Below are positions 5,489 through 42,579 of a DNA stretch of 64,000 nucleotides, one piece after another. Within the stretch, counting starts at the first letter, position 1; every line of letters begins with the position of its first letter. The position numbers and the translations under genes were made by a program. Under the pieces are notes generated by a model. The model saw only the letters and a list, made by a program, of their open reading frames with translations. It had not been told where the DNA came from and searched no databases. The DNA comes from Diplonema papillatum (taxonomy: Eukaryota; Euglenozoa; Diplonemea; Diplonemida; Diplonemidae): the NCBI GenBank assembly GCA_030068145.1, contig JAPJBO010000352.1:124001-188000 (forward strand). Direction: 5' to 3'.

Positions 5489-5519
<31 letters not shown>

Positions 5520-5640
5520 ACGGACAAGGCGAAGGCGACGCGGGGCGTGCGGGCGAGTTGCCGGCGCGGCCGGGCGCTGTTGAAGGCCCGCAAGTGCCGT
5601 CGGACGGCAGGAAGAAAACGAAGGACGAGGCGGCTCGGCT
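3613..5640 (+). repeat. Tandem triplication of an exon (812-bp unit)
   Basis: Units start at about 3613, 4425 and 5237, exactly 812 bases apart. Units 1 and 2 are nearly identical; unit 3 is partial and diverges after about 5625 into unique exon sequence. Units 1 and 2 carry one extra C in a ggcccggcgcc run that breaks the exon frame, while unit 3 (ggccggcgcc) keeps it. Units 1 and 2 also leave the exon and run straight into the tail of the SINE-like R1 repeat (from about 3999 and 4811) and a poly-T tract. Unit 3 has an expanded GCC-triplet run. Confidence 0.9.
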
Positions 5641-5845
5641 GCGGTCCGGCGGCGACGACGGCGAAGCCAAGCGGGTTGGGCGGCGCAGCAAGCTCGAATC
5701 GTTCCCTTCGAAGGCCCGGAGTTGCTCGGCGCAGCCAGTGTCGGCCAGCGCTGACGACTCCAGCGCGCGCATCGCGAGCGCGTCTCCGAGTGCGGTGCCC
5801 CGCTTCAAGTTGTTGAAGAAGTCGCGGTTCAGTTCGTCATTCAAG
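5252..5845 (+). CDS. Pro/Ala/Ser-rich exon, gene 1 (intact third copy)
   Basis: The exon lies between an acceptor after caacaacag and a donor at caag|gtctcc and is 198 codons in phase 0-0. It is low complexity: Pro/Ala/Arg-rich at first, a run of nine prolines from a GCC-triplet expansion in the middle, and a Ser/Lys-rich basic C-terminal part (LKKSRFSSSFK). The last third has host-like codon usage and is present only in this copy. It splices in phase to the Agenet-like exon at 8964. It is probably a disordered linker of a chromatin-associated protein; no catalytic domain is visible. The exact 5' border is uncertain because the whole exon is duplicated upstream. Confidence 0.6.
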
Positions 5846-5875
5846 GTCTCCCCCCCCCCCCCCCCCCCCCCCCCA

Positions 5876-7083
5876 GGGGGGGTCAAAAGGTCTTTTTTTG
5901 CGTCAAAATGGTGACATTTTCAGCCTGTAGACTTAACGGCAGTTTAAGGCTAAAAAAACATGCAACCCGCCTCAGAAATGCCCGGAAACGTGTTTTTGGG
6001 GAAAGTTTCATGGAAAATGGCCCAGGGGGGGGTGTATTAGTTGATGGTTTTAGGGTGGACACCGTTTGGTACCGGCTAGCTGCCTGTGTGTGTGCTTCAC
6101 TGTTCATACCATGCAAAGATGAGGCTACAATCACGTGCAGGCAGCCACAAATGGAAGCAACAAAAGGGCAAACGACACCCAGGAGGAAGGCAGCTATGAA
6201 CGTTGCTCGTCTGGATGGTTAACAACGTCCCAAAAGGCTCTCTGAGTCTTGCGCAAGCTGAGGTGTTGTTGACACCGCAGGCAGCAGCTCTTCCCCGAAC
6301 TGCTGCTGGGGCGATATTCACAAAGTTCGATGTCTTTCCGAGAAAAACAATGAGATGCTCTCATCCGTAGTGGGATTTTCCAGATCCCAACGTTTTTGTT
6401 GAAGGGATGCACGCGACAGTGTCTTTTATTCAAGTTCGCCTTTCGTACACCACCCCGAAAGGGTCGCATTGCACACGCACGGAAGACAATACTGGTCACC
6501 GGGGTGTATCTGGTACCTAACCCCAACGCACGTTGAGCTTGAACAAAAATAGAAAACTGGACTTGAACGAAAAGGTTCGGCGGTGGATTCATAGGGCTGC
6601 CACGACATAGCAGCTCAGGGCAGGGTATCTGCAGCTTGCGGTAGCACGCTACACGACACAGGCCACTACGAAAGCTGGCGCTGACGTCAAGGACTCGAGG
6701 GGGCGGCACGTTACGAAGCCGTACCTCATTGAGTCGCTTGTCAATGCCTCCTACGAAGCCCCACCATCCCCAACTCTCAGGAAAGTCTTTTGAGTAAAAA
6801 TACATAGGTTTGGGCAGTGCTGTTTTCCTTCTTCGGTTCATGCTGTCACTATTTTTGGGGTTGTCACCTAAAAAGAAGAACACCGGTACCAAACGGTGTC
6901 CACCCTGAGTCCAAAAATTGGGCACTCGTAAAAAGGCCTTTTCGGGGCACTTCAGCAGCCAAAAAGCATGTTTTAGGCATTTCTATACGGTTCTGGGGCG
7001 GTTTACCAAATTTTATTGCCTTTTAGGAGCCCCTATGTGGTTCCCAAAAAAATGACCTATTTTGACAGCTTTTGACCCCCCCT
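5876..7083. mobile_element. Non-autonomous DNA transposon with ~180-bp diverged TIRs
   Basis: The left end begins ggggggtcaaaag (after a C tract) and the right end is its reverse complement at 7070-7083. About 180 bp inside each end lies a perfect 24-bp inverted match: 6052-6075 (agggtggacaccgtttggta and onward) against 6885-6908. The sequence between these matched blocks has diverged. The 0.8-kb core has no transposase frame. Family is not determinable from the sequence alone. Confidence 0.65.
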
Positions 7084-8004
7084 ACCCCCCCCCCCGTCCA
7101 AAAATACCATGGTAAAGAAAATAAAAATTAAAATTAAAAGTAAAAGGAGAAAAAAGAAATTGTCGACAACGAAAGAAAGAACAGAAAAAACAGAAAACGG
7201 GAAAAAAAGAAGAAAAAAAGACTCTGCATTCCGCGAAGAAGACTTGATGCTAGCATCAAACACTTAGAGGCAAGTAGCGCCTGAACACGAAACTAAGATT
7301 TCCCCCCCCCCCCGAGGTGCACACAACACCGCGGTGAAAAAGAATAAAGAGGACTAGTCCCTCAAGGTTTCATACCCTACCTGCGGAGTCTTACCCTCCC
7401 TGTGACCCCTTTACCCTTTTCCTTTTTCCCTTTTCTATCTTACACTCTCTTCGAAGAAGACTTGATGCTAGCATCAAACATGCATGAGAGGCAGTGTCCT
7501 GCCTAAACATTAAACTAAGTTTTCCCCCTACACCCCCATTTTTCCCCTTTCTTTTTATTTACTTTTTCCCGCCCGATGTCGCTGATGACTAACGGACCGT
7601 CGGACCCGTCCCAACGGGGGTGCTTATGGAAGCTGCAATGAAGGCTTAGACCGGTACGGGCTACATGGCAACCCCTGCTCAACATGTAGAACGTGGGGGG
7701 CCCTTGATCACATTCATTACGGGTGTGGTCGTGGTGTCGGTCGCAATAGTCGCTTTGCTAGCCAAAGAGAGAGATAGAGAGAAAAAGAGCGCCAGAGAGA
7801 AAAGAAAAGATAACGTTATCTTCCGGAAAAGAAGGGTCACGCGAACCCCCGAAAAAATAATTACCCCCAAAAAAAATATACAGAAAAAAGTAAAAACACA
7901 AACCGACGGTGACCCCCAAAACCTTTTTCAACCTTTCCAACACCCTTCAAGCTAAACCATTATACAACGACCCCCCCCCCCCCGGCCTTCTCCCCGTGAC
8001 GGTT
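7084..8004. other. Intron-like DNA with a direct repeat pair
   Basis: Homopurine/homopyrimidine-rich sequence with several C tracts. A ~75-bp block (agaagacttgatgctagcat...actaagttttcccc) is present twice, at about 7236-7305 and 7453-7527. A related end occurs near 55415. No gene recognised; the short frame at 7665-7955 has no domain. Confidence 0.55.
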
Positions 8005-8276
8005 TTTTAACTGCTTGCTCAGACAGGCACCCACCCCCGTGATAGGTGTTCGCCTGTGCTCTAGTAGCACGGGTGGTCCTGGCTGTGGCGAGCACGAACA
8101 GCCGCCTGACAAAACAGGCGCACACCGCTGTCCTGTCTGCAGACAGACTCAGGCTCCGCAAACCCGGGTTTGCGCTGATGATGGGCCGCCTTATGCGTCC
8201 TTGGCTCAAGGACCGAAACACGGCGCAGACGGGACCAGTGCGGTGTTGAGATCCAAGCACGTTCTTGCAACCCCGC
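8005..8276 (+). repeat. R3 dispersed repeat, unexpanded copy
   Basis: Shares both flanks with 2590-3366 but has only one copy of the 25-bp module (8127-8150). An 18-bp perfect palindrome (cgcaaacccgggtttgcg, 8157-8174) sits directly before ctgatga. Downstream, gtccttg/caaggac (about 8199-8215) form a perfect 7-bp hairpin where other copies have a weaker one, followed by gaaacacggcgc. Confidence 0.8.
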
Positions 8277-8373
8277 TCTCTTTTCCTCTTTACTTTGATC
8301 GTAGGTCTCACGGCAAGTTTCGGCAGCCGCTGCTTAACAATGGAAATGACCAGGTTGACCATGATTGACCCAG

Positions 8374-8870
8374 GGTAACTCGTCGCTAGCACGAGTCGCT
8401 CAATTTGGGAATGCTGAGCTAATCGGCAGGTATCCCTCTGCTAAGCCCGAATAACTCCCGGAAGCCGATAGCGTACGAGTACAGTGATGGAAAGATGCAA
8501 AGGGCGAGTGTCCCGGGTTTCCTTGACGAGCCATGTTGGATAACTCGTCGCTAGCACGAGTCGCTCAATTTGGGAATGCTGAGCTAATCGGCAGGTATCC
8601 CTCTGCTAAGCCCGAATAACTCCCGGAAGCCGATAGCGTACGAGTACAGTGACGGAAAGATGCAAAGGGCGAGTGTCCCGGGTTTCCTTGACGAGCCATG
8701 TTGGATAACTCGTCGCTAGCACGAGTCGTGCAGTTTGGGAAAGCTGAGTTAATCGGCAGGTATCCCTCTGCTGAGGAAAAATATCTCCAGAGGCCGATGG
8801 GGAACTATTACAGTATTGACGGAAAGATGCAAAGGGTGAGAGTCCCGTATTTCCTCTCGACGGAGGCTGG
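8374..8870. repeat. Three tandem copies of a ~164-bp unit
   Basis: 'taactcgtcgctagcacgag' begins units at about 8376, 8541 and 8705. Copies 1 and 2 are almost identical; copy 3 diverges in its second half. No coding potential. Confidence 0.85.
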
Positions 8871-8877
8871 TGGCACA

Positions 8878-8948
8878 TTATACTCCTTTGAGATTTCGCA
8901 GCTGGCAGTCTCCTCACGTGTTTCCTACAAAGCAGGTGCTCATACAAA
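8878..8948 (-). repeat. R2 MITE end
   Basis: Matches the reverse complement of the R2 head (agcacctgctttgtaggaaa, gaggagactgccag). It lies directly before the 8964 exon and so probably supplies intron sequence next to its acceptor. Confidence 0.7.
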
Positions 8949-21185: not shown

Positions 21186-23411
21186 ATGGGGTGCACAGGG
21201 GGCAAAGAAGCGCCCCCGCCGGCCCGCAAGAACCCGCAGCCCCAAGCGGGAGCCGGGAAGAAGCCGCCGACGGCGGCGGCGGCCGCCGCCGGCGGCGGCG
21301 CGAGGGCGCCAGAGAAGAAGGCCCCCGCGGCGGCGGCGGCGGCGCCGCCGCCGAAGGGGCCGAAGGTTACCCTGCCTCCGTCGCCGTTCGCTCCGTCGCC
21401 GCCCGAAAATTACAAGCAGTCGTTCCCCGTGTGGGCCCCGGAGGAGGTCTTCGTCGACTTGGACAAGGTGTCCCACGTCCGCGAAGGCGTCGAGCCCATC
21501 TTCAAGAGCGGGTCGTCGCCCACTATGGAGTTCAGCGGCTTTGCCCACACGGTCGTCGACTTCGAAAAAACCGCGCAGCCGAAGCTCGAGAACACACAGC
21601 GCCACGCGGGCCCCGCCAGCCCGCCGTCGTCCAACGAATGCGGCCTCGCCTCGAAGCTCGGCATCAACCCCGCCCTCGACCGCCACCTCATGTACCTAGT
21701 CAAGGCCCTGCACACCCTGCCGCCGCCGCTCGGCTGGGAAGAGGTCGTCGACACCCAAAGGGACAAGCGGTTGTTCAAAAAATCGTATCCTCCGCTTCCT
21801 CCCGGCTCGCCGCTGCCGCCGGCCGCGGAGATGCTGCTGCGCCGGCGGGCGCAGGTCGAGCACCCGATGTACAGGCACTACTTGTACCTCGTCCACGAGG
21901 GCAAGTTCCCGCCGAAGACGCCGGGGACGATGTGGCTGGAGGGGGCAAAGCCGGAGGTTAAGCCCAGCACCTTCACCCGGCCCGTCCGCCTGTATCTCGC
22001 GGAGCCGGCGAAGACGGGAAAAGGCGCGAACCCGTGGATCGACCCAGCGGCGCGAGACTTCAACTCCGAGTTCCAAGACCTCTGGGACACCACGCCTCTG
22101 CAGCCGGGCGCGCTGCGGGACCGTGAGGTTGCCCTGATGACGCTGCTCGACGACTTCGAAACCGAGGCGCTAAACGCGGCGGTGACCTTCGTGCTGGAAA
22201 CGGCCGTCGGCGACCGGAACAACACCCTCCGCGTCGGCAACCTGCTCCTCTCCTACCAAAACTCCGCCAAGCACATCCACTTCTACGGCTCGCGGTCGAA
22301 CGCCGTCAAAATGCACCAGCACGAGTTCCAAGGCTACCACTGCGTGCTGTCAGCCTACCTCGCGAAGCTGCACGTGCCCCTGCACGCGACCATCTGCTTC
22401 CTCGGCAACAGGGTAACCGTCGTCGCGGCGCTGCCGCTGTCCAAAACGTCGCTCGTGCTCGGGCCTTCGGACCCGAACGCATCGCCCGAGACCCGCAAGT
22501 ACGCGCAGGGCGGAGAGGCAGAATCGCTGCTTGAGATCATGGCCGCCGACTACAGGCTCGCGAAGCACGTCACGCCGTCGATGGAGACCATCAAAGTCGG
22601 TTCCGCGATGACCGAGTGCCACGCCGGGTCGGACAAACGGCTCTACGTGACGCAGGTGTCGCGGACGCTTCCATCCTGCCCTGTTTTGCTGGTCGACTCC
22701 TTCGAGTTCCGGCCCGAATTGGTGAAGACCTACCGGGAGAACAAAGGGCTGTCGACCTACTGGCAGAACCCGGAGGACGGAATCGTGCACCAGCTGCAGA
22801 CGTACGTCAACGAAGAAACCGTCGAGTTCTACTCGGTGTGGGTGTGCTCGCCGGCCGGGATCGAGGGCGTCAAGGACGGCGACGACTGGGCAGACTCGTT
22901 CCACCACTTCGGGCTGAAGATGTCGAAGCTGCGGCTGGTCCACGACAAGATCGCGTCGAAGCAGGACATCTCGGATCGGCTGAAGGAAAACAGGCTGTAC
23001 TCCCTGCGCAACGAGATGTTCGCGCGCGGGTTCAAAGCGGCGCTGAGGGAGGCAGACGACCCGTCCGAGTGCTTCACGCTGTTCATGGAGGACACCGCCG
23101 TGTTCCTGGCACCGTTCACGAAGAGAAAGTACGACTGGGATCCGATGACCGTCTTCAGCTCTGCCCAGGAGATGGACATCAAGCTCCTGCCCGACCAGGA
23201 AGCCATCCTCGCCCGCGTGGCGCCGATGATGGACAGCCACATCCAAACCAGGCGGGACCACGAAGGAAACCTCCGCATCACGGAAGTTGACCTCAGCCAG
23301 AAGGCGCTCGTCAAGGAACGCTCCCCGAAACACTGCCAGAACGTGTTCACCTTCACCAAGGGAGCCTCTCGGTTCAGACCCGAGATCATGCGTGAACTCG
23401 ACAGGAATCAG
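21186..23411 (+). CDS. CLU-domain/TPR protein, exon 1
   Basis: First of seven exons for a protein of the CLU (clustered mitochondria, CLUH/Tif31) family, whose members act in the cytosol near mitochondria and bind mRNAs for mitochondrial proteins. The start MGCTGGKE fits N-myristoylation at Gly2 with possible palmitoylation of Cys3, which would tether the protein to membranes. Residues 2-65 are Ala/Pro low complexity. The CLU core runs from about residue 376: HEFQGYHCVLSAYLAKLHVP, then FLGNRVTVVAALPLSKTSLV, LAKHVTP, ECHAGSDKRLYVTQVSRTLP (compare EGHxGTDGRFYLLDFSRTFP) and FRPELVKTY. The exon ends in phase 0 at gaatcag|gtgtgg. The family match rests on motif order and spacing. Confidence 0.85.
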
Positions 23412-23844
23412 GTGTGGCACAGTGCTTCTTTTACAACGAACTATCTCTTGCGGGTTGTCCTGGTCGCATAATCCCCCCCTGTGTTATTATTCGTTTTGTC
23501 GAATACCAAAAAAAGTTAGGGTAGCCGAGCAGTAGCGGGATCAAATAGTGTTTTCAGACAACCGGACGCGTGTCAAATAACTGTTATTATTCGACCCCCC
23601 TTTAAATGCGGCGTCCAGGCTAAAAAGAGTGTTCTGGTGGTTGCAACGAACCCCGAACCCGATTAAGAGCAATATTTTGAAAACGGTCGAACGACTTGGC
23701 TGGCCAAAAATGAAAGTTGTTCGTACGAATGCGTCTTCGCCACCATGGCCCAGCCTCAATGGTCCCGGATACTCTGAAATACTGACCTTGTAGAACACGA
23801 AGCAGTCCAAAAGAACAAGAGGGACGTCGGCCAACGACTATTCA

Positions 23845-24200
23845 ATACCCCCTCCGCCGTGTGCTGTATTTTGTCTTGAAGTACCTTCGTGACGAGTAGG
23901 TTGGGGGAAATGGATTGGATGCAGCCATGCAGTCAACGAAGCGTGCTATCCGTACTGGGCTGCTCTAATACCCCCTCCGCTGTGTGCTGTATTTTGTCTT
24001 GACGTACCTTCGTGACGATTTGGTTGGGGGGAATGGATTGAATGCAGCCATGCAGTCAACAAGCGTGCCATCAGTACTGGGCTGATCTAGTACCCCTCCG
24101 CTGTGTGCTATATGTTGTCTTGAAGTACCCTTTGGTTGGGGGGAATGGATTGGATGCAGCCATGCAGTCAACAAGCGTGCCATCAGTGGGCTGATCTAGT
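23845..24200. repeat. Three tandem ~118-bp units in CLU intron 1
   Basis: 'taccccctccgctgtgtgct' starts units near 23848, 23967 and 24086. Each continues to gcagccatgcagtcaac. The third is internally shortened. The last unit ends just before the exon 2 acceptor. Confidence 0.85.
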
Positions 24201-24222
24201 ACCCCCTCGAAACCATCCACAG

Positions 24223-25146
24223 ACGTCGACTCATATCAGTTCCGACGCGATGACAGAGGAAGCGCTGGAAGGAGACCTTTCGAATGACATGGCAAACGTC
24301 GGGAACCTCCTCGAAAGCGTGCTCCTCGGGAGGGTGATCCCGAAGTTCGCGTCCGACCTGCTGATCCGGCCGCCCGGCGACCAGGACATGCTCGCGAACC
24401 TTGCCCACGAGAAGGGCATCAACATGCGGTTCTTAGGTGTCGTGCTGTTCCACATCATGCAGTGGAAGGACGACGGTGACTGGCGGACCGTGCGTGATCC
24501 CGATACCAACATCCCCCTGGCGGTTGAGGTTGTCATCATCGAGATGTACTCCCGCACGTTCCTCGACTTTTTCGAGGACAAGGTGCAGGGCCACTCGTAC
24601 ACGGGCGCGACGCTGAAGGCGAAGGCCTGCTTCCAGTCCCTCATCGACGACCCCCAGTTCCTCACCCCGCGCATGAACCGCAAGTTCGGCGGCGGGCCCG
24701 GCAGCGTCAAGATGCCCCCCGCCGACAAGCTCGTCAAACGATGCTCCGAGCTCTGCGGCGCGCTGATCGTGATGGCCGACGAGACGTCCGTCGCTGAAGT
24801 CGCGTTGTCGCCGGTTGTCAAAACGGTCCACCTGCCGCCGCACCTGCGGTGCAAGTGGCTCGCGGACTCTGAAAACGCGGTCGACATGCAAGTGCTGCCC
24901 GCTATAGAGATGTCGCTGGTCGACAGAGTCGACGCCAGGCCGGACGGCACGTCGGCCATCCCACTGCTCGCGATGCTGTCCCTGCTGTACCAGCGCTGGG
25001 AGGAAGAGGAACCGGGCACCCGGCAGCAGCAGCTGCTCGACCGCCGCGTGCAGATCGCCGAGCAGACCGACCCGGCCTCCATCGAGCACGGTGACGCCAA
25101 CCTGCTCCTCGGCGACTACTACAAATATCTCGAAGACCACAAGCAG
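24223..25146 (+). CDS. CLU-domain/TPR protein, exon 2
   Basis: Phase 0 at both ends (acceptor catccacag, donor cacaagcag|gtcgtt); 308 codons. It carries the CLU signature HEKGINMRFLG (compare LHxxGINxRYLG), which confirms the family, then a helical region with QRWEEEEPGTRQQQLLDRR leading into the TPR part. Confidence 0.85.
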
Positions 25147-25320
25147 GTCGTTTTCCTTTTCTTCTTGCCGTACGTAGGTGTCATGGGGGGGGCCTTCACG
25201 AGGCGACACTGTTAACCGCACCTTAATTGAGTTGCGGTCGCCGATCCCCCAACCGCCAGCATCATGTACTCGACGCGACGCGGAACGAAGTGCTGCTTAG
25301 CAGCCAATGGCCTGTGATGG

Positions 25321-29225: not shown

Positions 29226-32200
29226 ACGGGGCGAACTCCCGTGCATATAAGTCGATCTTTGAGTGCGTGAGCCCCTCCGAAGAAAGGTCCATCACACTAG
29301 TTCCAAGCTACTTAGCCCGGGTCTCTGGGTCGCGTCCCCCTCCTTCTTTTGGTCGCCTGGTCCTGCGTCTTGTTGGTCCGTCCGGGCTGGGGGCTTCGCG
29401 CTTCCCCTTCGTCTTGCATCACCTCGTCTCCACTCCCTGCCGCACGGGCTCCTACGTTTTGTGCCACCTGCGACGCGGGTCGCTTTACTGCTTTTCTGCG
29501 CGACGGCTGCTCTGTACTCGTTGCCTTATCCGCGATTGCCGCTTCTCGTACCGACCGCGCCTGCCTTTCCTGTTCTACGACGGGGCGAACTCCCGTGCAG
29601 CCCACACCGCAAAACGAAAACCAGCCGAGTGTCGGATGGAGAAGCGGACAACTCGTCCTCCGAAGAAACCGACCCAGTGCCACATTCATTGCGAATGTGT
29701 TCGTGGTGTCAGTCGCAGGAGTCTTTTTTGGCCAGCCAAAGCGAGTAAAAGGGTGAAAGAGCACGTATAGTAGCGAGTAGAGAAAAGAACGAGTGTAAAA
29801 GAACGGAGGTAGCACAAATTCTTGCCTTTCCCTATCCCTCAAAACCAGCACAAAATCTCTTTCCGACTGAACCCCCCACTCTATCTTAGGCTACAAAACG
29901 TAACACAGATCAGCAAGGAACTGCCTGACATACCACTCCCTAAACCAGAGCACTGCGCATGTCACAGATACAACTCCGGAAAAACGATCAACGGCCACGC
30001 CATAGGCTTCCTCTCAGCAATTACGAAAGAAAACGGGCTTTCGGAAATCGTCAGCAGAGGCAGAAAGTACAGATGCTACCAGAGCCACCACGCTCTGACC
30101 GAAACGCTACACGAGGCAATAGAGGAGTACGTACAGACATACTACCCCGCAGGCAGTGACACAACCTCATTCGAAACGGAGCTCAAAGCCGAAATATCAC
30201 GAAGAATGGCGGCTCTACCACCTTCAGACGACGAGAAATTGAATACAAAGGCCACAGCCGAACTAGCTGTCATTAAACAACACCTGGTCATCTTACCAGT
30301 AGACAAAACAACGCACGATTTTGGATACTGTTGCAAAGCCCAATACACACACGCGCTACGACAACAACTCGACGCAAACGAAACATACGAGAAACAAACG
30401 ATCACAAAAACAGAAGTAGAGAGCAACCACAAACGTATAATGGCAGAGCTCGACCTACCGTTCCACAAGGGACTACCACACCTCTACGGCTCCATAAAAT
30501 TACACAAAGCAGAACCATCTTTCCGTTGGATAGCCGGTGTCGCCGCAGAAAAAAACAAAAAGCACCGCAACACAAAACGCGAGGCACCCAAAGCAACCCT
30601 CACAAATGCCCACCTCGAACTATCAGGCCTATTGAAAAGCGTGATGAAAGCCCTCAAACGAAAAGACGAACTCAACTTCCGCCGTACAGGAATCAAACGT
30701 GTATGGTTTACAGAAGGACCAGACGACATCACCCTGCACATAAAGCAGAACCTCACCCGCCTCCGATACAAAATCCCAACTACACACGACTTCGAGGACA
30801 TGTACACAAGGCTACCTCAGGACAAGATAGTGGAAGAAGTATGCGAAGCGATCGAAGAAGCTTTCGAATTCGAAGAACAGAACGGCAACCCTAACCTAAC
30901 ACGTGGAGCGAAACAGAAAGGCAAGAAAACCTTCACCTTCAGCCGGCAGACGAACGACACGAAGCGCGCATACTCCAGAGAAGCAGTCAAAGAACTACTT
31001 GCAATCATTATCGGTAACAGCTACATAGCACAAGGCGATCAAGTACTCAGGCAGACCGACGGCATACCTATGGGCGGTAATGCTAGCTCGGATATAGCAA
31101 ACCTTTTCTGCTATCGGATCGAGAAAGCATACGTAGACAGCCTCGTAGATGAAGGAAAGATCGAAGAAGCGAAGGCACACGCACACACCTACCGCTTCAT
31201 CGACGACTTCCTCAACTTCGGGACCACACCACCACCGCAGCACCTTTACAACATGCGGTACAAAAACACAACTACAGCACACGACGACGTAGTATTTCTC
31301 GGAGTCCGGATACGCGTCGAACGTCCGGATCCTCCCCACGCACCGCACATCCGCCTCACAATACAACCGAAAAACTACGGGACCCGCTATACCCACCACC
31401 TAACAACGGCTCCCAAGGCGCAAGCGAGCGGTATCTTCAAGGGCGCGCTGATACGAGCAATCCGACAAACGAACCACCTACAAGACCTGCGTGTAGAAAT
31501 ACAGAGGAGCGTATATGCCATGATCGACAGAGGTCACAACCCACGGGTACTATACGCACCCTGGAACGCATGGCTCACAGAGGAATTCGGCAACCTGCCA
31601 CGACTCCACAGCCAGCTCAAGCCGTTCCTTGGATTCTGCGTAGCCCGGCACAAAAAACGCCAACCACGCATCAACGAACCGGAGTTCGCCGGCAAACACA
31701 GGCCAACCAACTTCTTCCCGGCCCACTTACCGAGCGAATCACCATCCTCCGTTGACTCTCCATCACAACCCACACCCGAATTAACCGTCACGGAACGAGT
31801 AGCCAGCCTCGTTGCAACCATCACCATCGCCGCAGCAGTAGCAGCCAAAACGAAGCGGAAACACCCACAGCAACTTCACAAATACACGACAAGAAACTCT
31901 TGCTTCCTGCAAGCGTCGCTAAACCTCATAGCAGCGACACACTTGTCAAATCAAATACGCAAGTACAACGACTGTCCACAACACCAAACAGGCCCATGCA
32001 CACAAGACGTGAACGAATGGATAAGCGGCAGGAAAACCCAAAACGTCGTCCAAAGGCTCTTCGAGCACATGGGCACACACCTCGGCGACGGAGAACAACA
32101 CGACCTAGAAGAAGCCTTACTTCAACTACTCGCTGCGATAGCGAACGAAAACGAAGAACACCGCACGTGCCAACCAAACTGCAGCGACGCCTTCAACGAA

Positions 32201-33240
32201 TTATTACACCTACAGACGACAACAATCCATTGCAACAACTGCGGCTACATCAAAACAGAAGATCAACCCTACAGCATGACAATCCTCGCAATACAGGCCA
32301 GCACCGCTCAAGGATGTCTGGACAGTTTCTGCAAGAAAAGCACCCCCAAAGATTACAGATGTGACAAGTGCAAAAAGACAAAGACAGCAGAAACGCAAAC
32401 CAGTATCCGAGCAGCACAAGACACATTACTACTGTGTCTTAGACGGAACGAGTTCGCAAACGAAAATCGAACCCCGGTGGCAGCTGATCCCACCCTCAAC
32501 ATTCCGGACCACGAACACAAATACGAACTCCAAGCCGTTATAACACACACAGGAAGAGAGAACGCCGGCCACTACACCATCCACAAACGTAACCGCACCC
32601 CTTTCACAGACCAAAACTGGACACATTACAACAACGAAACCACCTCACACTCCCGGGAACCTACGTACACAGACAACGCCACGTACATGTTCCTGTACAC
32701 GAAAGAAGACACCACCGACACAGACCCTACACAAACACTCGAACTGCTCGAAGAATTGCGAGGGGACACCCCTACCTCAGACGACGAGACCTCATCCGAA
32801 GAAACAACACAGCATGAAGGAACGCTGATTTGGGCATGCCCAGCCTGCAAAGCAACTACCACGGACGCAGGCAACAAGTTCAAAGGCGCCAAAGGCCTCC
32901 GTACACACATGCTTCACTGCAAAGAGATGACTCTAGCAACAAGCCCAGTACGAAAGGCGGCACAGAAAGCCCTCGGAAAACGCAAATGCCCATACTGCAA
33001 CAACGACGGACGGACCGCAGGGAAAGCGCGCTTCAAAAGTCTACGCCACCATATCTCAAAATGCAAGAGAAACCCAGCGGTATCGCACACGCTCAAGGCT
33101 ACGAAAAAGAATAAGCAAAGTAAGCGAGGAACTTAATTTCATCATCCACGGCTGCCTCGTGCAGCTAGAGAACCCCGACTGTGGAGGACAACAAACAGTC
33201 AAATGAGGTTTTTTTAAAATAAATTTTTTTATCACATCTT
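29226..33240 (+). mobile_element. Penelope-like retroelement in a CLU intron
   Basis: Sense-oriented within the intron between exons 4 and 5 (28490-33947). One long frame (29822-33136) is followed by a T/A-rich tail with an aataaa at 33218. Upstream, the 21-bp sequence gacggggcgaactcccgtgc(a) occurs twice, near 29226 and 29579, and could mark tandem 5' ends as in other Penelope-like elements. Limits are approximate; no target-site duplication was recognised. Confidence 0.65.
29822..33136 (+). CDS. Penelope-like reverse transcriptase fused to USP deubiquitinase and zinc fingers
   Basis: 1,104 open codons; no in-frame ATG before about 30206, so the true start is upstream by splicing or non-ATG. 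RT region (about 150-480): LVILPVDK (PLE 'PADKG'), LPHLYGSIKLHK ('YGLPKIHK'), motif A THDFEDMYTRLP ('SLYTNIP'), motif B QTDGIPMGGNASSDIANLF (411 on) and motif C YRFIDDF with catalytic D461/D462. USP domain (about 685-975): Cys box RNSCFLQASLNLI (C694), two CxxC pairs of the zinc ribbon (HCNNCG, RCDKCK), His box GRENAGHYTIHKRN (H917) and WTHYNNE (N938 as third residue). C-terminus: two C2HC fingers (CPACK...HMLHC; CPYCN...HISKC). No GIY-YIG nuclease. The frame is intact across all domains. Confidence 0.85.
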   Translation: MPFPIPQNQHKISFRLNPPLYLRLQNVTQISKELPDIPLPKPEHCACHRYNSGKTINGHAIGFLSAITKENGLSEIVSRGRKYRCYQSHHALTETLHEAIEEYVQTYYPAGSDTTSFETELKAEISRRMAALPPSDDEKLNTKATAELAVIKQHLVILPVDKTTHDFGYCCKAQYTHALRQQLDANETYEKQTITKTEVESNHKRIMAELDLPFHKGLPHLYGSIKLHKAEPSFRWIAGVAAEKNKKHRNTKREAPKATLTNAHLELSGLLKSVMKALKRKDELNFRRTGIKRVWFTEGPDDITLHIKQNLTRLRYKIPTTHDFEDMYTRLPQDKIVEEVCEAIEEAFEFEEQNGNPNLTRGAKQKGKKTFTFSRQTNDTKRAYSREAVKELLAIIIGNSYIAQGDQVLRQTDGIPMGGNASSDIANLFCYRIEKAYVDSLVDEGKIEEAKAHAHTYRFIDDFLNFGTTPPPQHLYNMRYKNTTTAHDDVVFLGVRIRVERPDPPHAPHIRLTIQPKNYGTRYTHHLTTAPKAQASGIFKGALIRAIRQTNHLQDLRVEIQRSVYAMIDRGHNPRVLYAPWNAWLTEEFGNLPRLHSQLKPFLGFCVARHKKRQPRINEPEFAGKHRPTNFFPAHLPSESPSSVDSPSQPTPELTVTERVASLVATITIAAAVAAKTKRKHPQQLHKYTTRNSCFLQASLNLIAATHLSNQIRKYNDCPQHQTGPCTQDVNEWISGRKTQNVVQRLFEHMGTHLGDGEQHDLEEALLQLLAAIANENEEHRTCQPNCSDAFNELLHLQTTTIHCNNCGYIKTEDQPYSMTILAIQASTAQGCLDSFCKKSTPKDYRCDKCKKTKTAETQTSIRAAQDTLLLCLRRNEFANENRTPVAADPTLNIPDHEHKYELQAVITHTGRENAGHYTIHKRNRTPFTDQNWTHYNNETTSHSREPTYTDNATYMFLYTKEDTTDTDPTQTLELLEELRGDTPTSDDETSSEETTQHEGTLIWACPACKATTTDAGNKFKGAKGLRTHMLHCKEMTLATSPVRKAAQKALGKRKCPYCNNDGRTAGKARFKSLRHHISKCKRNPAVSHTLKATKKNKQSKRGT

Positions 33241-33947
33241 ACGACTGTAAGAATAACATCGAACAATAACCAACGCTACTTCCACTTCTTCGAGCCAACG
33301 AGCCTTCATGCGAACAGCGCAAGCGTAACCTCTGTCACTCAAACCCTCCAACCACCCCCCCCCGGTACCCCGAGGACAACCCTCAAAACCCCAACTTCCC
33401 CTCTCCCCCTCTCCCCCCCTTCTTTTTCTCCCCCATTTCTTTTTCCTTTTTTCATCCCCTAATCCGTGCCTCGTAACACACAGCCGCCGATCAACACGAA
33501 ACCACCCAGAAGAAAAGCCAGGCACCGGGATCTTCCTGACGAGCACGCAACCCGGTGAACTTAATCAAGAGTCGAAGATTAGCGTCGAAACTTCCTGGCT
33601 TTTCACGCCGCAGCAGAACGACCACACCCTACCCAAACCCAAGCACCCTCTAAACGCGTTAGGGGACTTCACAAGGTTTCACAACGGAGTGACACAACAC
33701 CCGAAACGAGTCGCACTCTTTTACATTTCTCAACCCCCCGCCATACCCAAGCCTCTACGGTCAACCGGAGACTTTAAAATACCGACCTTCTAATCCACAA
33801 ATAACGCTAGTAATAACAACGACGGGGACCCAGAAGCCGGAAACTGAAAGCCGATTGGTGAAAGTGACAAGTGGACTATAGTTTGCTTCAAACATACCCA
33901 CTGTACGCCATACACCTCAACACACATGCATACATACACCCACACAG
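33241..33947. other. CLU intron, nothing recognised
   Basis: Pyrimidine-rich tract at 33340-33450, otherwise unremarkable intron DNA. Confidence 0.6.
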
Positions 33948-34043: not shown

Positions 34044-35320
34044 GTATGCCAAATTGCTTCAATGGCAAAGTTGTTGGTCGATGCATCCACACTGGTCGTT
34101 GAAAAAGCCGTAGCCGGTTGCCACAACGAGTTTGCCTGCTTAGCTTGCCATGTTCTGTTTTGAAAGATTACTTGCGTACACCACAGAGACTCGAAAAGTG
34201 TTACGAATTTTTACTCTGAACCCAGAACCTGGACCTCCAAGCGAACTTCACTCCAAAAACCTTAACTCAAAAACAAATGCACACACAGCTGATGCTCTCA
34301 GAAGGTAGTGACGAATGCTCCGACAACGTTGCTTTGAAGTACTACGAGGTTTGAAATGGCTTTTTTGTTTCGTGTCCTCGCGAGCAAGTGTGACGCCAGC
34401 AGCTTTGGGACCTGGACGCTTTTTGGCACCACTTCATGTGGTCAGCAGCAAGATCAGCAGCTTTCTGGCTTCACCTTTACTCCAACCATACGGCGCGCGG
34501 CAAGCGGGGCGGGAGCGGTGGACAGTGACAGACGCAAGCATATTTCGGAGTGAGGATTTTATTAGTACTTGCAATCTAGCGGGTTGGCCTGCATTGGGAC
34601 TGTGAAGGCTAAAAAAGATGTAGACGGCGTGTCAGAATCCTGAACGCGAACGAGAAGGGGTGAAGAACAAGTAGAGAGTCGATTAACCGTCACGCGCGAA
34701 GCACGTTTCACGACTGGGACGTGGTGCCATGATCCATCCCCTCTTGATAGACCGTGATAGACCGAAGAATGCAGCACCGGGCAATTCGATGCAGCTCTAG
34801 GGACCAGGGATGGACCTGATAGACCGTGGTGGACCGTGATTCACTCTGATAAACAGCAGCAGGCACTTCGATGCAGTTTCAAGAGATAGGGACGGACCGG
34901 CTCAATGAAAGTAAAACGGTAAAAACCGTCTTTGATTCTGCCTTATGATGATTCCACCATTCACTCCATTCTAAATGCTTCTCTCGAAGTTGGTCTTCTG
35001 AATGGAATGGAGTGCATTTGTGGTGGAATCATCATCAGTCAAAATCAAAGACGGTTTTACCGCTTTACTTTCATGGCACCAACATCGAGAGAACCATTTG
35101 ATTCATCGTTCTCCAAATCCACATCCCCGGGTTTCCTGATCCAACCCCACTCTTTCCAATGGAGCGAATCAGAAGATACCCGTAGGAACCGGCCACGGCT
35201 CAAGCCCAGGACCCAACAAATTCCAAGCGTTTGGCAGCAGTCTCATCAACAGTCAACTGGAGACTCCGTGATCTGGCCTTCTAAGATCATGTGCACGCAC
35301 AAGATCACGCCCTCATAGAG
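34044..35320. other. CLU intron with R4 and fold-back MITE
   Basis: Holds a copy of the 1682-1812 repeat (34433-34563), an R5 piece (34568-34660), R4 (34728-34903) and the fold-back MITE described separately. No other exon seen. Confidence 0.7.
34904..35076. mobile_element. Fold-back MITE, ~75-bp arms
   Basis: The left arm (atgaaagtaaaacggtaaaa, gatgattccacca) pairs over about 75 bases with the right arm (ggtggaatcatcatc, ggttttaccgctttactttc) around a short centre. It abuts the R4 copy directly at 34903. Snapback-type MITE, non-coding. Confidence 0.85.
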
Positions 35321-36591: not shown

Positions 36592-38322
36592 ATGGAGGAG
36601 ATCGAACAATACCTCCAGAAGGCACAGCGACTCGCTGAGGAGGCGGAAGACGAAGCGCAGATCAGCGCGGTGTTCGGGATCATCAAGGTCCTGCTCATCT
36701 TGACCGAGAAGGCCGGGCAGAAGCGAGCCCGAGAACGAGGGATGGCGACGCCCCAGACGAAATCGAAGCCGAAGACAACGACGAACCCGAAGGCCGGGCA
36801 GAAGCAGCCCGAGAAGGCCGGGCAGAAGCAGCCCGAGAAGGCCGAGCAGGAGCAGCCCGCGAAGCAGACGACGGCGGCGCCCATGAAACATACGACGGCG
36901 GCGCCCGCGGAACAACTGAAGCAAGCAGACCGCCAGGCGGACACCGCGACGAAAGAAGGAACCGCCCGGAAAGAGCCGCGAGCGAGCGGATGGAAAGAAG
37001 TGGTCGGAAGGAAGAAGCCGGCTGCCCCGAAGAACGCAGGGCTACGGACCGACGACTGGGGGATGAAGGCCATCGACGTGAAGAGCGTGCTGGAAGGGAA
37101 TACGCGGCGCGGAATCGTTGAGACGACGACGGAGGAAGGGAGAAAGGTCGTCGCCCACGCGAAGGAGCTGACCGACCTGGAAGCAGACGGCGTCGCCCTC
37201 GTGGTCATCACCCCGAAGCCGGCAGACGAGGAGCGCTCGACGTACGAGATCGTTTTCTCGACGGACGGGACGCCGTCCTACAGATACGTCACCCTGTGTG
37301 GAGACGCGCGGGCCGCCCAGGGGAGGATCGGGCTCAAGAAGACGGCCAACGAGACGCAGGTGCTGGTGTTCACTGCCCTGCACCGGGAGCTACCGAAGGA
37401 AACCGTGACGCTGCTCACCGACAAGAAGAAGGGGGCCGGTGTGATCGACCGCATGTGTGCAACGGCGGCAAGGGACAACGGCGCCGAGATCGAGAAGCGC
37501 CACCGATGGCGACACGCGGACCTGCCGGAGAGGAGCACCTGCATGGTGCGAGTGACGCTGGCGCAGGCCAACAAGCTCCTCGCCTGCAGCGGGAACGGAG
37601 GCCACTTCTGGTCAGCCCCCAGCTTCGCACGGGGTGGAGAAACGGACAGCGTCCTTTGGCTCGACAAGGCCGCCACCCTCGACGACGCACTCGCCCTGGC
37701 GGCCCTGCCTGGCACCAACGGGCTGGCTGCGGCGGTGACACGCCTGGGGGTCCGCTACACCGGCGACGAAGCACTGGAGGAGCTGCAGGAGGCGGCCGGC
37801 GACCTCGTCGCCCCGCCACGATACGGCGGAGGGCTGGCGTACTTCGTCACCGGCGGGCGGAATGAGCACGCCGCGGACATCACAGCGGCGCTCAGAGATG
37901 TCGGCTGGAACGGGGCGCAGAGGAAGTCCTTCACGAAGGAAGGGAGGACGAGGCTGATCGTTGTGTCGCAGCAGCCGCCGCCAGCCACAGTAGTGTCGAG
38001 GATGGGCCGCGACCCTATCTTCGTACGCCCGATCGCAAGGGGGGACGAACCGCGCGGCGGGGCGAAGGCGAACGTGTGGGAGGGGCGAATCCCCAGGGCC
38101 TCGCTGCCTAAGCAGGCAGTCAAAAGCGACGCGCCGATGGACCCGAAGGAAGGCCACATACACGTGTGGCAGGAGCCGGAGCGGAACAAGGGCACGCAGG
38201 AATGCGAAGAGTGCGAAGCACCCCGGCAGAACGGGACGATGATGCGCACATGCTTCTGCGCTGCCCGCATCTGTGGTACGTGCTACACGGCCGCAAGCAA
38301 GAAAGTGCAGGAAGTCCGGTGA
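36592..38322 (+). CDS. LINE ORF1 protein
   Basis: 576 codons from ATG at 36592. N-terminal acidic/basic coiled-coil-like helix (EEIEQYLQKAQRLAEEAEDE), then tandem KAGQKQPE-type repeats and a basic Lys/Ala-rich stretch, a long globular middle (about 150-480) with no family I recognise, and a C-terminal Cys-rich knuckle (CEECE...CFCAARICGTC). LINE ORF1 products typically bind the element RNA, and the coiled coil plus Cys cluster fit that. The TGA stop is followed, in the same frame, by ORF2 with only CTC between stop and GTG. Confidence 0.75.
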   Translation: MEEIEQYLQKAQRLAEEAEDEAQISAVFGIIKVLLILTEKAGQKRARERGMATPQTKSKPKTTTNPKAGQKQPEKAGQKQPEKAEQEQPAKQTTAAPMKHTTAAPAEQLKQADRQADTATKEGTARKEPRASGWKEVVGRKKPAAPKNAGLRTDDWGMKAIDVKSVLEGNTRRGIVETTTEEGRKVVAHAKELTDLEADGVALVVITPKPADEERSTYEIVFSTDGTPSYRYVTLCGDARAAQGRIGLKKTANETQVLVFTALHRELPKETVTLLTDKKKGAGVIDRMCATAARDNGAEIEKRHRWRHADLPERSTCMVRVTLAQANKLLACSGNGGHFWSAPSFARGGETDSVLWLDKAATLDDALALAALPGTNGLAAAVTRLGVRYTGDEALEELQEAAGDLVAPPRYGGGLAYFVTGGRNEHAADITAALRDVGWNGAQRKSFTKEGRTRLIVVSQQPPPATVVSRMGRDPIFVRPIARGDEPRGGAKANVWEGRIPRASLPKQAVKSDAPMDPKEGHIHVWQEPERNKGTQECEECEAPRQNGTMMRTCFCAARICGTCYTAASKKVQEVR

Positions 38323-38325
38323 CTC

Positions 38326-41300
38326 GTGAACTCGACGCTGGTGTCACATGGGGCTGGTGAAGGCCAGCTCCATGTTGACTTCGAGGCGGTCTGCTGGACC
38401 AGCCACGACCTCTCCGGTGCCCCTGCAACCGCGCCACCTGACGCGTCACTTAACCACCACGACCCGAAGACCTCGGAACCAGCCGTCGCCTGCCTGGCGC
38501 CACTGCGATCTGCCCTGCCCTCGTTCGGGCTGCCGAGTCCTAGCACCCCTGCCAGGCAGTTCGATCACGCAGAGACGGAAAAAGAGAATTCCTGCTCCTC
38601 TTCTTTTCCCCTCCCTCTCTCTCACGGCGCGCCTGGCCTCAATCGCCCGGGAGCGATACCCCGAGGGACCGGTTTTGCGCACAAACAATCCCCCTACAAT
38701 AGCCAGTGTGCCCGGCCAACTTGCAACGAGGGCCCCCCCGCCAGGGTGGAGGGACCCATCCCGGGGCTAAGTTTCCAGGCGATCCCTCGGGATCTTCTGG
38801 ATAGACTGAGCCGAGCACCCGAGCTCAACCCGGAAGCCCAATGGGGAAGGCTGGGGGGTGGACGCAGCAGGGAAACCCAGCAGTGGGGGCACGCCTATCG
38901 ACTAGGTGAACCCCCGATCAGACTGGAACGGGATATCCCCGAGGGGCCCCTGAAAGAAGCGGCGGATCTCATACGTGACCGCCTTGGGTGGGAACCGGAC
39001 CAGTTGCTGGCCAACTGGTACCGGAGGGGAGTGGGGATCAACCCCCACAAAGACCAGAGAGAACTGGGTCCGAGGGTAGCGACCATATCGCTCTTGAGCG
39101 ACACGGTCATGGAATGGGAGAGGGGGAGCCGGAAAGTGAGAACCCCTCTGCCGGTCGGCACACTGTGCCACATGGAAGGCGAGGCCAGGAACCTGTGGAC
39201 ACACGGGATTCGTCCCGATGATGTCGCACGCGACCGGGTCTCGCTGACCTACAGGGCCGTGCGCGAGGCCGCCTCCCAAAGTTTGCAAGGCCGGGACACC
39301 CCGCAAGAAACTCCCATACCCCCCCCGCCCAGCCCTCAGGCATCCACTGCACCCCCCCAACATCAGTCCAGCCCCGCGCCACGGACACTTTTGCTTCATC
39401 ACCAAAGAACTCTACAATCAATCAAAGAATCAGCAAGACAGCGGCTGATAACCGCGGGGGACGTCGAACAAAACCCTGGTCCCGGCCGCGCGGAGATGAG
39501 GTTCGCGACGTTAAACGTAACCAACCTACTACAGTATCTCCCAGCGGCCGACGCGGTGGAAGCGGATCTTCTCTGCTGCCAGGAGGTGACACTCCTTCCG
39601 TGCAAACGGGTGCAGGCGGAGGAATACCTGCGGAAATGGTGCTGCCACTGGGGTCTGCCACCACCCGGAAGACTCTGTAGGAACTCCGGTAGTCGCTCGA
39701 CGATGAACGCCGCGAACGGAGGGCTCTCCACTCTAGTACTGAGACCGATACCGGCGTACGATACGATGACGGCGCTCTCGCACGCAGCAATACGGTCCCC
39801 GGACCGAGTGAGCCATACGGTAGTAGCAACAGGGGCCGGCAACACGTTCGTGCACGTGTTCAATGTCTACTGCCCTTCCGGAAACGGGAGGGCGGAGAGC
39901 GAGGAGCGTGAGGACATGCTGGAGAAGATCCTCTTCGCAGCGGCGGATAGCCTCGGTGACGTCCCCATAATGGTGATGGGTGACCTGAACACAGAAGAAG
40001 ACCGGTCCCCTGTACTGCGGAAGGCACTAAGGAATGGATGGTCCGACGCAGCGGAACTGCACCATGCGCGTACCGGTGACACACCACCACCACCGACCTT
40101 TACCAGCGCCCGGACATCGGGCACGAGGATCGACCGCATACTCCTCAACCGAATAACGACGGGAGCTTTCCGCCAATGCGTCACCACCGCGGTGAACGTG
40201 CCGGGACACCGGCTCGTGACAATGACCCTGGACATTGCGGCGCTGCGCCAAATCGTGTGGCGATTTAAAGTACCGCGGGAAATCTCTACGGAGGGGGGAC
40301 CCAAGTGGGGCCTCTCGGACACAGAAGCTTACAGGGAAGCCGTACAGAGACTGGCCAACTCCGATTTCGCAGAACGGCTGGCAGCACAGCGAGTGGAAGA
40401 GGCCTGGCTCGAGTGGTCACGAGTCAGTGAGCAGTACTTGCAGGATGCCTTCGGAATCCCTGCGGAAGAAAGGGGAAGAAGTACCGGCCGGGGGATAAAG
40501 ACGTCACCTAAAAGAGTCTGCATCACGGCAAGCACTGCGAGCGACGGGTCGGGGGCGGCGAACAGCAGACAGCTACGGCTCCGGAAGGCCATCCACAGGA
40601 TGGAACGCATCTGCAGCTACCTTGCGCAACGGCGCGGGCCGGAGGCAGTTCCGCATGAGGTATCCCGTTGCTGGCAGAACAGCAGGCGGCTGGCACAGGC
40701 GTGCATGAAAGATGGCCAAGGGACAGAAGGATTCCCGGATCATGAGGAGGCGAAGCAGCTTCTCACGGCATTGCGGGAAGAGACGAGCAGGCTCGGAAAG
40801 GAAGGATCGGCGGCCAGGTTTACGAAATACCGAGACAAGCTGAACGAGAGGGCCGATGCGAGCAGACGATGTCTGACAACCATCTGCGCCGGACGCGCTG
40901 AGCCGTCGGGGGTGTTGCGAAAGGGGGCGGGAGTGACTGCAAATGTTGACGAGATGGACGAGGTGCTGAACACTGCGTGGGACCCTATCCTGCGTAAGTA
41001 CAAGGACGGGCCAGAGCCGGAGTACGAGCCGTTTCGGGATCGGTTCCGGGATCACATCGGCCCACATATGATGGAAGCCGGAACAATCACGGGGGAGGAG
41101 CTGCGAATTCTGCTGAGGAAGAAGCCGAAGAAAAGCGCGTCAGGGGTGGATGGCTGGCGTATGGCTGAACTGCGGGAGTTGCCGCTCCCCCTGCTGAATG
41201 CACTTGCAGACGTCATGAACCTGGTCGAAGCAACTGGAGACTGGCCGGCAAGCATGACAACTGCGCTGGTGTCGATGGTGCCGAAGGATGAGAGTCAAGA

Positions 41301-42579
41301 CCCGCTGCACACAAGACCGATAACCGTCACATCCGCCGTGTACCGCTTATGGGCCTGCCGCAGGCTGGCGGACATAGTTCTGTGGCAAGAGGAATGGATC
41401 GAAGAAGGACAGAAAGGCTTTCGACCGGGTCACCGGATCGAGGACGTCTTGATGGAAATTGGGCTCGAGATGGAGGACGCCTTGTTAGACGGGGAGCCGC
41501 TCTACGGTGTGGCGCTGGACTTCCGGAAATGCTTCGACATGGTCCCGCGAGAGATAGTACTGCGCTTAGCCGAGGACTTAGGATTGCACAATCGGGTTCT
41601 CAAGCCGCTGAGGGCTATCTACAGACTGCTCGCGAGACGCTTCAAGCTACCATTAGGGGTGGGCAGGGAGTTCAGTGTGACCAACGGTATCCTTCAAGGG
41701 TGCCCTGTATCCGTCATACTCATCAATGCCCTGCTGTCGGTAGTGATGAAAGCGGTCAAGAAAGAAGCGGAGGGTGTGAGTCCAAAGTCATACGCGGACG
41801 ACGCCACACTGCTGTCCAGGCTGTCGGAGGCCGCCCTGCAAAAGGGAGTGGACGTAGTAGACGAGTTCTGCACACTCACCGGTATGGAGCTAAACCTCCA
41901 GAAGACGGTCGCGTTCTCGACGAGACGTAGGCATCAGTCGACTCTCAAACTCCGCAGCGTGGATGCGCTGCTGCGGTTTAGCAAATCCGTCAAGTGCCTC
42001 GGGGTCCTAGTCTCGACGGCGAAGAATAGGACGGAAAGGTCCGACTCGGAGAGGGTGGAGAAGGCGGCTGCCCTGGCGGAAGGCCTCCGCCATGCGCCGT
42101 TCCGGTACGAAAAGCGGGTCCGGATTGTGCAGTCGAATGTGCTACCGGCGGCGCTGTCAGGCTGCTCTTTCGCGCCGGTATCGAAGGTGGCGATGAAACG
42201 GCTGACGACGTCGGTGATGGGACTGATCTGGGGTGGATCCAACCCGAAGCGCGCGAGGGAGATGGTCCTGAACTTTCAGGAGAAGGGCCACCTGACGGAT
42301 CCCGGTACATGCCTAGCATATAGGGTGACGACAGCGTTTTACGCGGCGTGCGAGAGGTTGCCACGACTGCTGCCTCTGATGGAGAGCATCCGGGGAAGAT
42401 ACGCCGAGGGGGACCTACCCCTGGGGCCAGTTGGACTGGCGATGAGGAGCATGGGGGAGTGTGGACACGTATGGGGACCCGGGCCCCTGTCTCGCACGCT
42501 GAGGAATGGTGCAACATATGACCCGTTAGTCTTCACCGCCTCCTTCGTGACATGGGGGCTGTCCACCTCCTGCCTCTGA
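38326..42579 (+). CDS. LINE ORF2: AlkB-like dioxygenase, 2A peptide, APE endonuclease, reverse transcriptase
   Basis: 1,417 codons in the same frame as ORF1. Numbering is from the GTG at 38326; ORF2 may instead be reached by reinitiation or stop read-through. AlkB-like region (about 150-315): INPHKD (H241, D243), GTLCHMEGEARNLWTHGI (H293) and RDRVSLTYR (R304, R310). These are the HxD...H iron ligands and the two arginines that bind 2-oxoglutarate. After a Pro-rich linker comes GDVEQNPGP (379-386), a canonical 2A ribosome-skipping peptide. The APE domain follows directly (FATLNVTNL, MGDLNTEED, DRILLN, PGHRLV). RT: FRKCFDMV, GILQGCPVSVILINALLS and SYADDATLL. The frame stops at 42579 after the thumb-like region. 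Confidence 0.85.
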   Translation: MNSTLVSHGAGEGQLHVDFEAVCWTSHDLSGAPATAPPDASLNHHDPKTSEPAVACLAPLRSALPSFGLPSPSTPARQFDHAETEKENSCSSSFPLPLSHGAPGLNRPGAIPRGTGFAHKQSPYNSQCARPTCNEGPPARVEGPIPGLSFQAIPRDLLDRLSRAPELNPEAQWGRLGGGRSRETQQWGHAYRLGEPPIRLERDIPEGPLKEAADLIRDRLGWEPDQLLANWYRRGVGINPHKDQRELGPRVATISLLSDTVMEWERGSRKVRTPLPVGTLCHMEGEARNLWTHGIRPDDVARDRVSLTYRAVREAASQSLQGRDTPQETPIPPPPSPQASTAPPQHQSSPAPRTLLLHHQRTLQSIKESARQRLITAGDVEQNPGPGRAEMRFATLNVTNLLQYLPAADAVEADLLCCQEVTLLPCKRVQAEEYLRKWCCHWGLPPPGRLCRNSGSRSTMNAANGGLSTLVLRPIPAYDTMTALSHAAIRSPDRVSHTVVATGAGNTFVHVFNVYCPSGNGRAESEEREDMLEKILFAAADSLGDVPIMVMGDLNTEEDRSPVLRKALRNGWSDAAELHHARTGDTPPPPTFTSARTSGTRIDRILLNRITTGAFRQCVTTAVNVPGHRLVTMTLDIAALRQIVWRFKVPREISTEGGPKWGLSDTEAYREAVQRLANSDFAERLAAQRVEEAWLEWSRVSEQYLQDAFGIPAEERGRSTGRGIKTSPKRVCITASTASDGSGAANSRQLRLRKAIHRMERICSYLAQRRGPEAVPHEVSRCWQNSRRLAQACMKDGQGTEGFPDHEEAKQLLTALREETSRLGKEGSAARFTKYRDKLNERADASRRCLTTICAGRAEPSGVLRKGAGVTANVDEMDEVLNTAWDPILRKYKDGPEPEYEPFRDRFRDHIGPHMMEAGTITGEELRILLRKKPKKSASGVDGWRMAELRELPLPLLNALADVMNLVEATGDWPASMTTALVSMVPKDESQDPLHTRPITVTSAVYRLWACRRLADIVLWQEEWIEEGQKGFRPGHRIEDVLMEIGLEMEDALLDGEPLYGVALDFRKCFDMVPREIVLRLAEDLGLHNRVLKPLRAIYRLLARRFKLPLGVGREFSVTNGILQGCPVSVILINALLSVVMKAVKKEAEGVSPKSYADDATLLSRLSEAALQKGVDVVDEFCTLTGMELNLQKTVAFSTRRRHQSTLKLRSVDALLRFSKSVKCLGVLVSTAKNRTERSDSERVEKAAALAEGLRHAPFRYEKRVRIVQSNVLPAALSGCSFAPVSKVAMKRLTTSVMGLIWGGSNPKRAREMVLNFQEKGHLTDPGTCLAYRVTTAFYAACERLPRLLPLMESIRGRYAEGDLPLGPVGLAMRSMGECGHVWGPGPLSRTLRNGATYDPLVFTASFVTWGLSTSCL

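Follow-up and report, generated by a model that had tools for sequence, protein, structure and literature searches.

The window analysed here is a stretch of 64,000 nucleotides from the genome of the marine flagellate Diplonema papillatum (contig JAPJBO010000352.1, positions 124,001 to 188,000 of the forward strand), and all coordinates below are positions within it. At 29848-33809 (+) it contains a young Penelope-like element (PLE) copy, truncated at its 5' end and lying inside an intron of a CLU-like gene. By blastn against the complete unit on C1279, the copy comprises unit positions 4983-8944 of 8944 at 99.75% identity. The window frame 29813-33136 (+) is open, and its translation agrees with a preliminary description, made from the sequence alone, of a reverse transcriptase (RT) fused to a USP-type deubiquitinase in a single Penelope-like frame. 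All 41 scored genome matches to this protein (P0001) besides the window's own begin at residue 7 or later, mostly at residue 9; thus the window upstream of ∼29846 is flank. The element part of the frame (29846-33136, +; residues 9-1104) is the C-terminal half of a 2210-codon frame, and is followed by a 3' untranslated region (UTR) at 33137-33809 (+) that ends in ATCCACAAATAACGCTA.

The proposed fusion of RT and USP holds. Pfam UCH matches residues 690-959 of the window protein with a significant E=8.8e-14, and phmmer against solved structures finds USP15 at 8.4e-7. The USP/UCH deubiquitinase domain (31889-32698, +) carries the catalytic Cys C694 in the motif RNSCF (31901-31903, +), which is invariant in alignment A2, the two CxxC pairs of the USP zinc ribbon (C804 and C807, 32231-32242, +; C847 and C850, 32360-32371, +) and the catalytic His H917 in AGHY (32570-32572, +). 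These are as first described; the third catalytic residue, however, is N937 (YNN, 32630-32632, +) and not N938. Twenty-two other window-family stretches were fetched; the RNSCF motif, an intact Cys and His, and the Asn are each found in 22/22 (the Asn in 21 by motif, then in L033). The profile match and the catalytic Cys, His and Asp/Asn together identify the domain as PF00443. The RT (∼residues 155-620, 30284-31681, +; D323, D461 and D462 conserved) gives a weak match to RVT_1 (0.04), for which it is too divergent; its identity is settled by alignment with related RTs and by a predicted telomerase-like fold. The structure predicted for the window protein has a mean pLDDT (a per-residue confidence score) of 68.5, with the RT blocks mostly at 76-97, and a fold search matches the front half to telomerases and the 690-960 part to USPs. 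Relatedness to telomerase RT is a property expected of a PLE.

The RT is preceded by a CxC motif (HCACH, 29954-29962, +) in the linker between nuclease and RT, found in 21 of the 22 other stretches, the sole miss being L033, whose sequence stops short of the motif upstream. Two C2HC fingers (32837-32920 and 32987-33064, both +) follow the USP, as first described, and their pattern recurs in 21/22 other stretches; tblastn finds counterparts of finger 1 in the related proteins P0012 (E 0.002) and P0018 (0.023). Elsewhere in the window, at 2140-2235, tblastn also detects a weak, frameshifted remnant of the same finger (CSHCGATENLSGGSFANARG / GVSNHERTC; E 0.47-2.6), which may be what is left of a related element's tail.

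Using P0001 as the query against the D. papillatum genome (G000; 271.4 Mb, 2910 contigs), we scored 42 matches out of 1996 candidates. Identity is 99-100% in 36 of these 42 copies, 36 are without an internal stop, and the 2210-codon frame is open in 13. The entire USP stretch is covered by 39 of the 42, which contradicts a one-off chimaera. Twenty of the copies were fetched with flanks for mapping of the ends. The 3' end is common to 19 of them and the window copy (33809), with L028 differing in the last three bases, and the 5' ends differ between copies. On C1279 a complete unit measures 8944 bp and holds one 2210-codon frame. In two of four upstream stretches (C1279 and C743) part of the 3' end, 585 or 592 bp long and comprising most of the 33137-33809 UTR, is repeated and abuts the unit start as a pseudo-long terminal repeat (pseudo-LTR), while the remaining two (C1 and C309) begin later, at unit positions 238 and 1199. 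Head-to-tail arrangements are seen in C1724, with two window-family 3' ends 8945 bp apart, and in C510, with three copies of a sister family 5726 bp apart. The pseudo-LTR, the partial tandem layout and the variable 5' truncation are hallmarks of PLEs.

Both junctions could be read in nine copies, the window copy included. By eye, five (L009, L014, L016, L020 and L028) show exact, abutting duplications of 4-7 bp and two (L019 and L023) show duplications offset by one base; none was found in L021 or at the window copy. These elements have recently been mobile and the family is young. Some PLEs have a hammerhead ribozyme motif in the pseudo-LTR; in the window, whose copy covers the unit from position 4983 on, no Rfam family reaches the gathering threshold. 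Two observations concern the flanks. L009 and L019 have unlike 5' truncations and an identical 3' flank (AAAAGTACCTCTGACTGG...), reflecting either a duplication or the insertion of both into a host repeat at a single site. At the window copy, 22 nt of the 5' flank near the junction (29819-29840) have an inverted match (82%) inside the element (30906-30927), perhaps a template-switch scar or chance.

The full-length protein consists of an N-terminus with tandem repeats, a GIY-YIG nuclease, the CxC linker, the telomerase-like RT, the USP and the two C2HC fingers. In the L010 frame, GIY-YIG occupies residues 858-947 (PF01541, 2e-5), CxC lies at ∼1149, RT at ∼1260-1723 and UCH at 1796-2065 (8.9e-14), with the fingers beyond 2070. 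The first in-frame ATG of the 2210-codon frame is codon 118, and a 180-bp repeat is present 3.4 times in the N-terminal part. In L036, a member of a second family (P0006 type), GIY-YIG scores 7.5e-6 and UCH 2.4e-15, and the CxC motif is present; P0018 has GIY-YIG at 1.3e-4 (22.6 bits, equal to the cut-off), UCH at 1.3e-20 and one finger. GIY-YIG in full-length frames of two families is as expected of a PLE of the EN+ type. This amends the first description: complete copies have the nuclease at the N-terminal end, and no GIY-YIG was found upstream of the window copy, which lost it through its 5' truncation. Craig and colleagues reportedly defined, in 2021, the N-terminal-endonuclease PLEs (Chlamys, Naiad), in which the nuclease is N-terminal to the RT and a CxC linker is present, and the present elements fit that definition.

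A homolog search with the whole protein yielded no hit at E<=10 from 7993 candidates. The P0001 RT region alone found 12 proteins and a profile found 25, those 12 included; viral contigs gave no match. Domains were examined in all but the short P0021 and P0026. A complete UCH scores above the cut-off in P0002, P0003, P0006, P0016, P0017 and P0018. In P0004, P0008 and P0015 only its front part is present, below the cut-off, where the gene models end or enter other sequence; P0005, P0007, P0009, P0010 and P0014 read as partial or fused models. RT and USP occur together in four other families or subfamilies that were sampled, in the annotated protein P0018 and in the transcript P0017. The last is labelled Rhum in EukProt, which we take to be Rhynchopus humris; Rhynchopus is a diplonemid genus. 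The annotated D. papillatum protein P0006 has a 100% identical genome match over 870 residues, and its 52 scored matches in G000 fall mostly into groups of ∼99-100, 90-91, 75 and 72% identity. L038, the copy sampled from the 75% group, corresponds to P0003 (99.8%). USPs of elements of different families share ∼20% identity.

Other relatives carry a different enzyme at the same place. C-terminal to the RT, P0013 has an OTU domain (1.8e-6, 28.9 bits, cut-off 23.3) and P0025 the first half of the Josephin profile (5.9e-6, 26.6 bits, cut-off 26). The USP, OTU and Josephin sets are mutually unlike (hhalign probability 0.1-1.0%). No OTU-type element was seen in D. papillatum among 51 matches scored of 578 candidates, although the P0012 query (residues 1-474 at most) matched RT parts only, so such an element may still be present. 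By eye the corresponding domain of P0011 and P0019 has papain-like Cys and His residues, but against the Josephin pair hhalign gives a probability of 4.6%, Pfam finds nothing above cut-off and the model blocks mostly lie at 24-62, with one at 72; we therefore leave this domain without an assignment. The 50 Foldseek matches listed for its model are polymerases, save one spliceosome chain. Nor do we claim P0022 as a decayed Josephin, a possibility raised by eye (hhalign 10%). This clade of RTs bears several domains of deubiquitinase type, of which the USP is one.

An unrooted RT tree was built from 16 rows, all hits of this clade. The OTU, Josephin and P0011/P0019 pairs each form one side of a starred branch; the USP rows need three changes, with the deep order unsettled and P0016 on a long branch. 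The domain labels follow the RT tree, requiring five changes, the minimum for six labels, against a shuffled mean of 8.6, a difference to which near-copies contribute. As the tree is unrooted, it does not distinguish gain from loss of domains.

Selection on the USP was estimated as the ratio of nonsynonymous to synonymous divergence (dN/dS). Against the divergent copy L033, which itself carries a stop and a 1-base insertion, we obtained dN 0.022 and dS 0.216 for the RT (dN/dS 0.10), 0.023 and 0.148 for the USP (0.16), 0.054 and 0.126 for the linker (0.43), and 0.009 and 0.109 for the fingers. L034 was set aside: its protein match is 90% identical and has stops, but its DNA is 99.4% identical and has small insertions, which leaves no usable dN/dS. 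In the six pairs formed by L035, L037, L038 and L039, which represent four families or subfamilies in this genome, dN/dS (rough in five of the pairs, as explained below) is 0.05-0.13 for the RT, 0.09-0.26 for the USP and 0.23-0.45 for the linker, and Cys, His and Asp are kept in all four. By these estimates the USP evolves with dN/dS well below 1. Its divergence outpaces that of the RT (P0003 and P0006, for instance, are 68% identical in the USP and 81% in the RT), which is expected under changing host factors, or else marks a less constrained domain.

The ubiquitin system turns over some retrotransposon proteins in model organisms. We consider it probable, from sequence and its conservation, that the USP is an active deubiquitinase in the element's ribonucleoprotein (RNP), enabling escape from ubiquitin-dependent removal. 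The GIY-YIG nuclease of the RNP would nick DNA, and the RT would copy the element RNA at the nick, a target-primed process that would leave 5' truncations and short target duplications. The USP, tethered to the RNP, would strip ubiquitin from the element's own protein or from proteins at the insertion site, and the RNP would thereby evade removal that depends on ubiquitin. USP, OTU and Josephin have ubiquitin in common and not sequence, so the constant demand is probably deubiquitination, which we regard as the likely function of the C-terminal domains. Since relatives bear other deubiquitinase-type enzymes at the same place, these elements may depend on defeating the ubiquitin system. With somewhat better than even confidence, we propose that a clade of telomerase-like retrotransposons relies on deubiquitination to spread. 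Unrelated deubiquitinase families, at least three in number (USP, OTU and Josephin, perhaps with a fourth in P0011/P0019), would have been taken into one C-terminal slot of this clade, which would point to ubiquitin-based restriction of retrotransposons as a long-standing arms race in protists.

Several results weigh against an active deubiquitinase of this kind. The USP blocks of the window-protein model reach a pLDDT of only 37-73, and the third catalytic position of P0016 is Lys. In five of the six between-family pairs dS is 1.35-2.0 in RT and USP, which makes their dN/dS ratios rough. The one unsaturated pair, L035-L037, gives equal ratios for the USP (0.26) and the linker (0.27), with the RT at 0.13. 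USP variation inside the young window family amounts to 0 synonymous and 4 nonsynonymous changes; so small a number permits no judgement and by itself gives no sign of constraint. Among the relatives, P0012 as a whole protein has no OTU at E<=0.1 and reaches only 0.0012 as a cut piece, the Josephin match of P0023 (0.0011) is below the cut-off, and no recognised deubiquitinase was found in P0020, P0022 and P0024, members of the wider clade on short contigs, some of them fragments.

There are several possible explanations for what the USP does. Protection of the element's own RNP in cis is the one we rank first, while giving it slightly less than an even chance. Below it we rank action at the target, where the USP would deubiquitinate histones or DNA-damage and repair proteins and so allow insertion or second-strand synthesis. 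Protection of the RNP and action on ubiquitinated chromatin had both been suggested in the preliminary description. The latter is possible but distinctly less likely; it is consistent with the tethering of the USP to nuclease and RT, and Foldseek lists Ubp8, which deubiquitinates histones, ahead of the other USPs, though rank tells little about substrate. A third, unlikely explanation is self-processing: like viral papain-like proteases, the cysteine protease would cut the long polyprotein of the element, and deubiquitination would be incidental. The 2210-codon frame with its separable modules and long repetitive N-terminus would suit such a role, and viral papain-like proteases can combine both activities. 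However, what USP, OTU and Josephin share is a ubiquitin substrate and not a cleavage motif, and Pfam finds no ubiquitin-like domain in two full-length frames. Moreover, the only GG of the window-family protein belongs to the RT motif GIPMGGNAS, which makes self-processing by a ubiquitin-like cut less likely, and the GG sites of four other proteins examined lie at no shared domain border.

It is very improbable that the USP is a passive passenger, a captured host exon without function. Retroelements in general are known to capture host genes, and in the unsaturated pair constraint on the USP does not exceed that on the linker, but this explanation is largely contradicted by dN/dS of 0.09-0.26 in all pairs, by a triad intact in all 22 other window-family stretches and in the four sampled families, and by the presence of a USP in a second diplonemid genus as well as in divergent families. 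A chance fusion of open reading frames (ORFs) or an assembly chimaera is refuted by 42 scored copies on many contigs and by separately annotated proteins.

Chlamys and Naiad PLEs share with the diplonemid elements the N-terminal GIY-YIG, CxC linker and telomerase-like RT, as well as pseudo-LTRs, partial tandems and 5' truncation. The diplonemid elements differ in their C-terminal USP (OTU or Josephin in relatives) and C2HC fingers, in an N-terminus of ∼800 residues with tandem repeats, and in their euglenozoan host. Their USP resembles cellular USPs (USP15, USP21, USP46, Ubp8) in its UCH fold, Cys/His/Asn residues and zinc-ribbon CxxC pairs, but is fused to a retroelement RT and is only ∼8-20% identical to them in structural alignments. 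Canonical PLEs (Penelope/Poseidon, for example PAc, for which target-primed reverse transcription is outlined) have a telomerase-related RT, GIY-YIG, pseudo-LTRs and partial tandems; their nuclease is C-terminal, unlike that of the diplonemid element, and the parts of the source covered name no deubiquitinase for them (PMC11167929). Helentrons are also mobile elements with a deubiquitinase-type cysteine protease, but they are rolling-circle DNA transposons with other replication machinery and an OTU-like domain in place of a USP (PMC6431247). The D. papillatum genome paper, whose title calls the species a model, names LINE (long interspersed nuclear element), SLACS, R2, jockey and DNA elements and reports transposable elements within introns; its main text contains the words 'Penelope' and 'ubiquitin' 0 times (PMC10161547).

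At the level of titles and abstract openings, we found no PLE or retrotransposon with such a deubiquitinase, although a prior mention is possible in the 2021 paper on PLEs with an N-terminal nuclease; nor did we find such PLEs in print for a euglenozoan, in which they are now placed. These elements join to their polymerase an enzyme that opposes the ubiquitin system and that seems to be under selection; their relatives have other enzymes for what seems to be one job. The fusion makes a direct test possible, as one catalytic-Cys mutant parts RT and nuclease function from ubiquitin removal.

The gene that hosts the window copy is CLU/eIF3-like (CLU 1.1e-16, eIF3_p135 2.3e-5), with TPR exons, extending over 21186-25212 and further exons to ∼35500. 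The copy lies between two TPR-type exons, in an intron of ∼28.49-33.95 kb, on the same strand as the gene; exons were assigned by eye. Downstream, 36592-42579 is a LINE-like element, with ORF1 at 36592-38319 giving no Pfam match and ORF2 at 38326-42576 matching an endonuclease (9.4e-9), an RT (1.1e-20) and an AlkB-like 2OG-Fe(II) oxygenase domain (3.6e-12); it is a second retroelement bearing an odd additional enzyme. Among the repeats of the window are a MITE-like (miniature inverted-repeat transposable element) inverted repeat at 34922-35058, with 38-nt arms that are 92% complementary and a 61-nt spacer, tandem units spaced 812 bp apart at 3615-5628, and a 25-bp minisatellite at 2667-3295 whose frame is open throughout.

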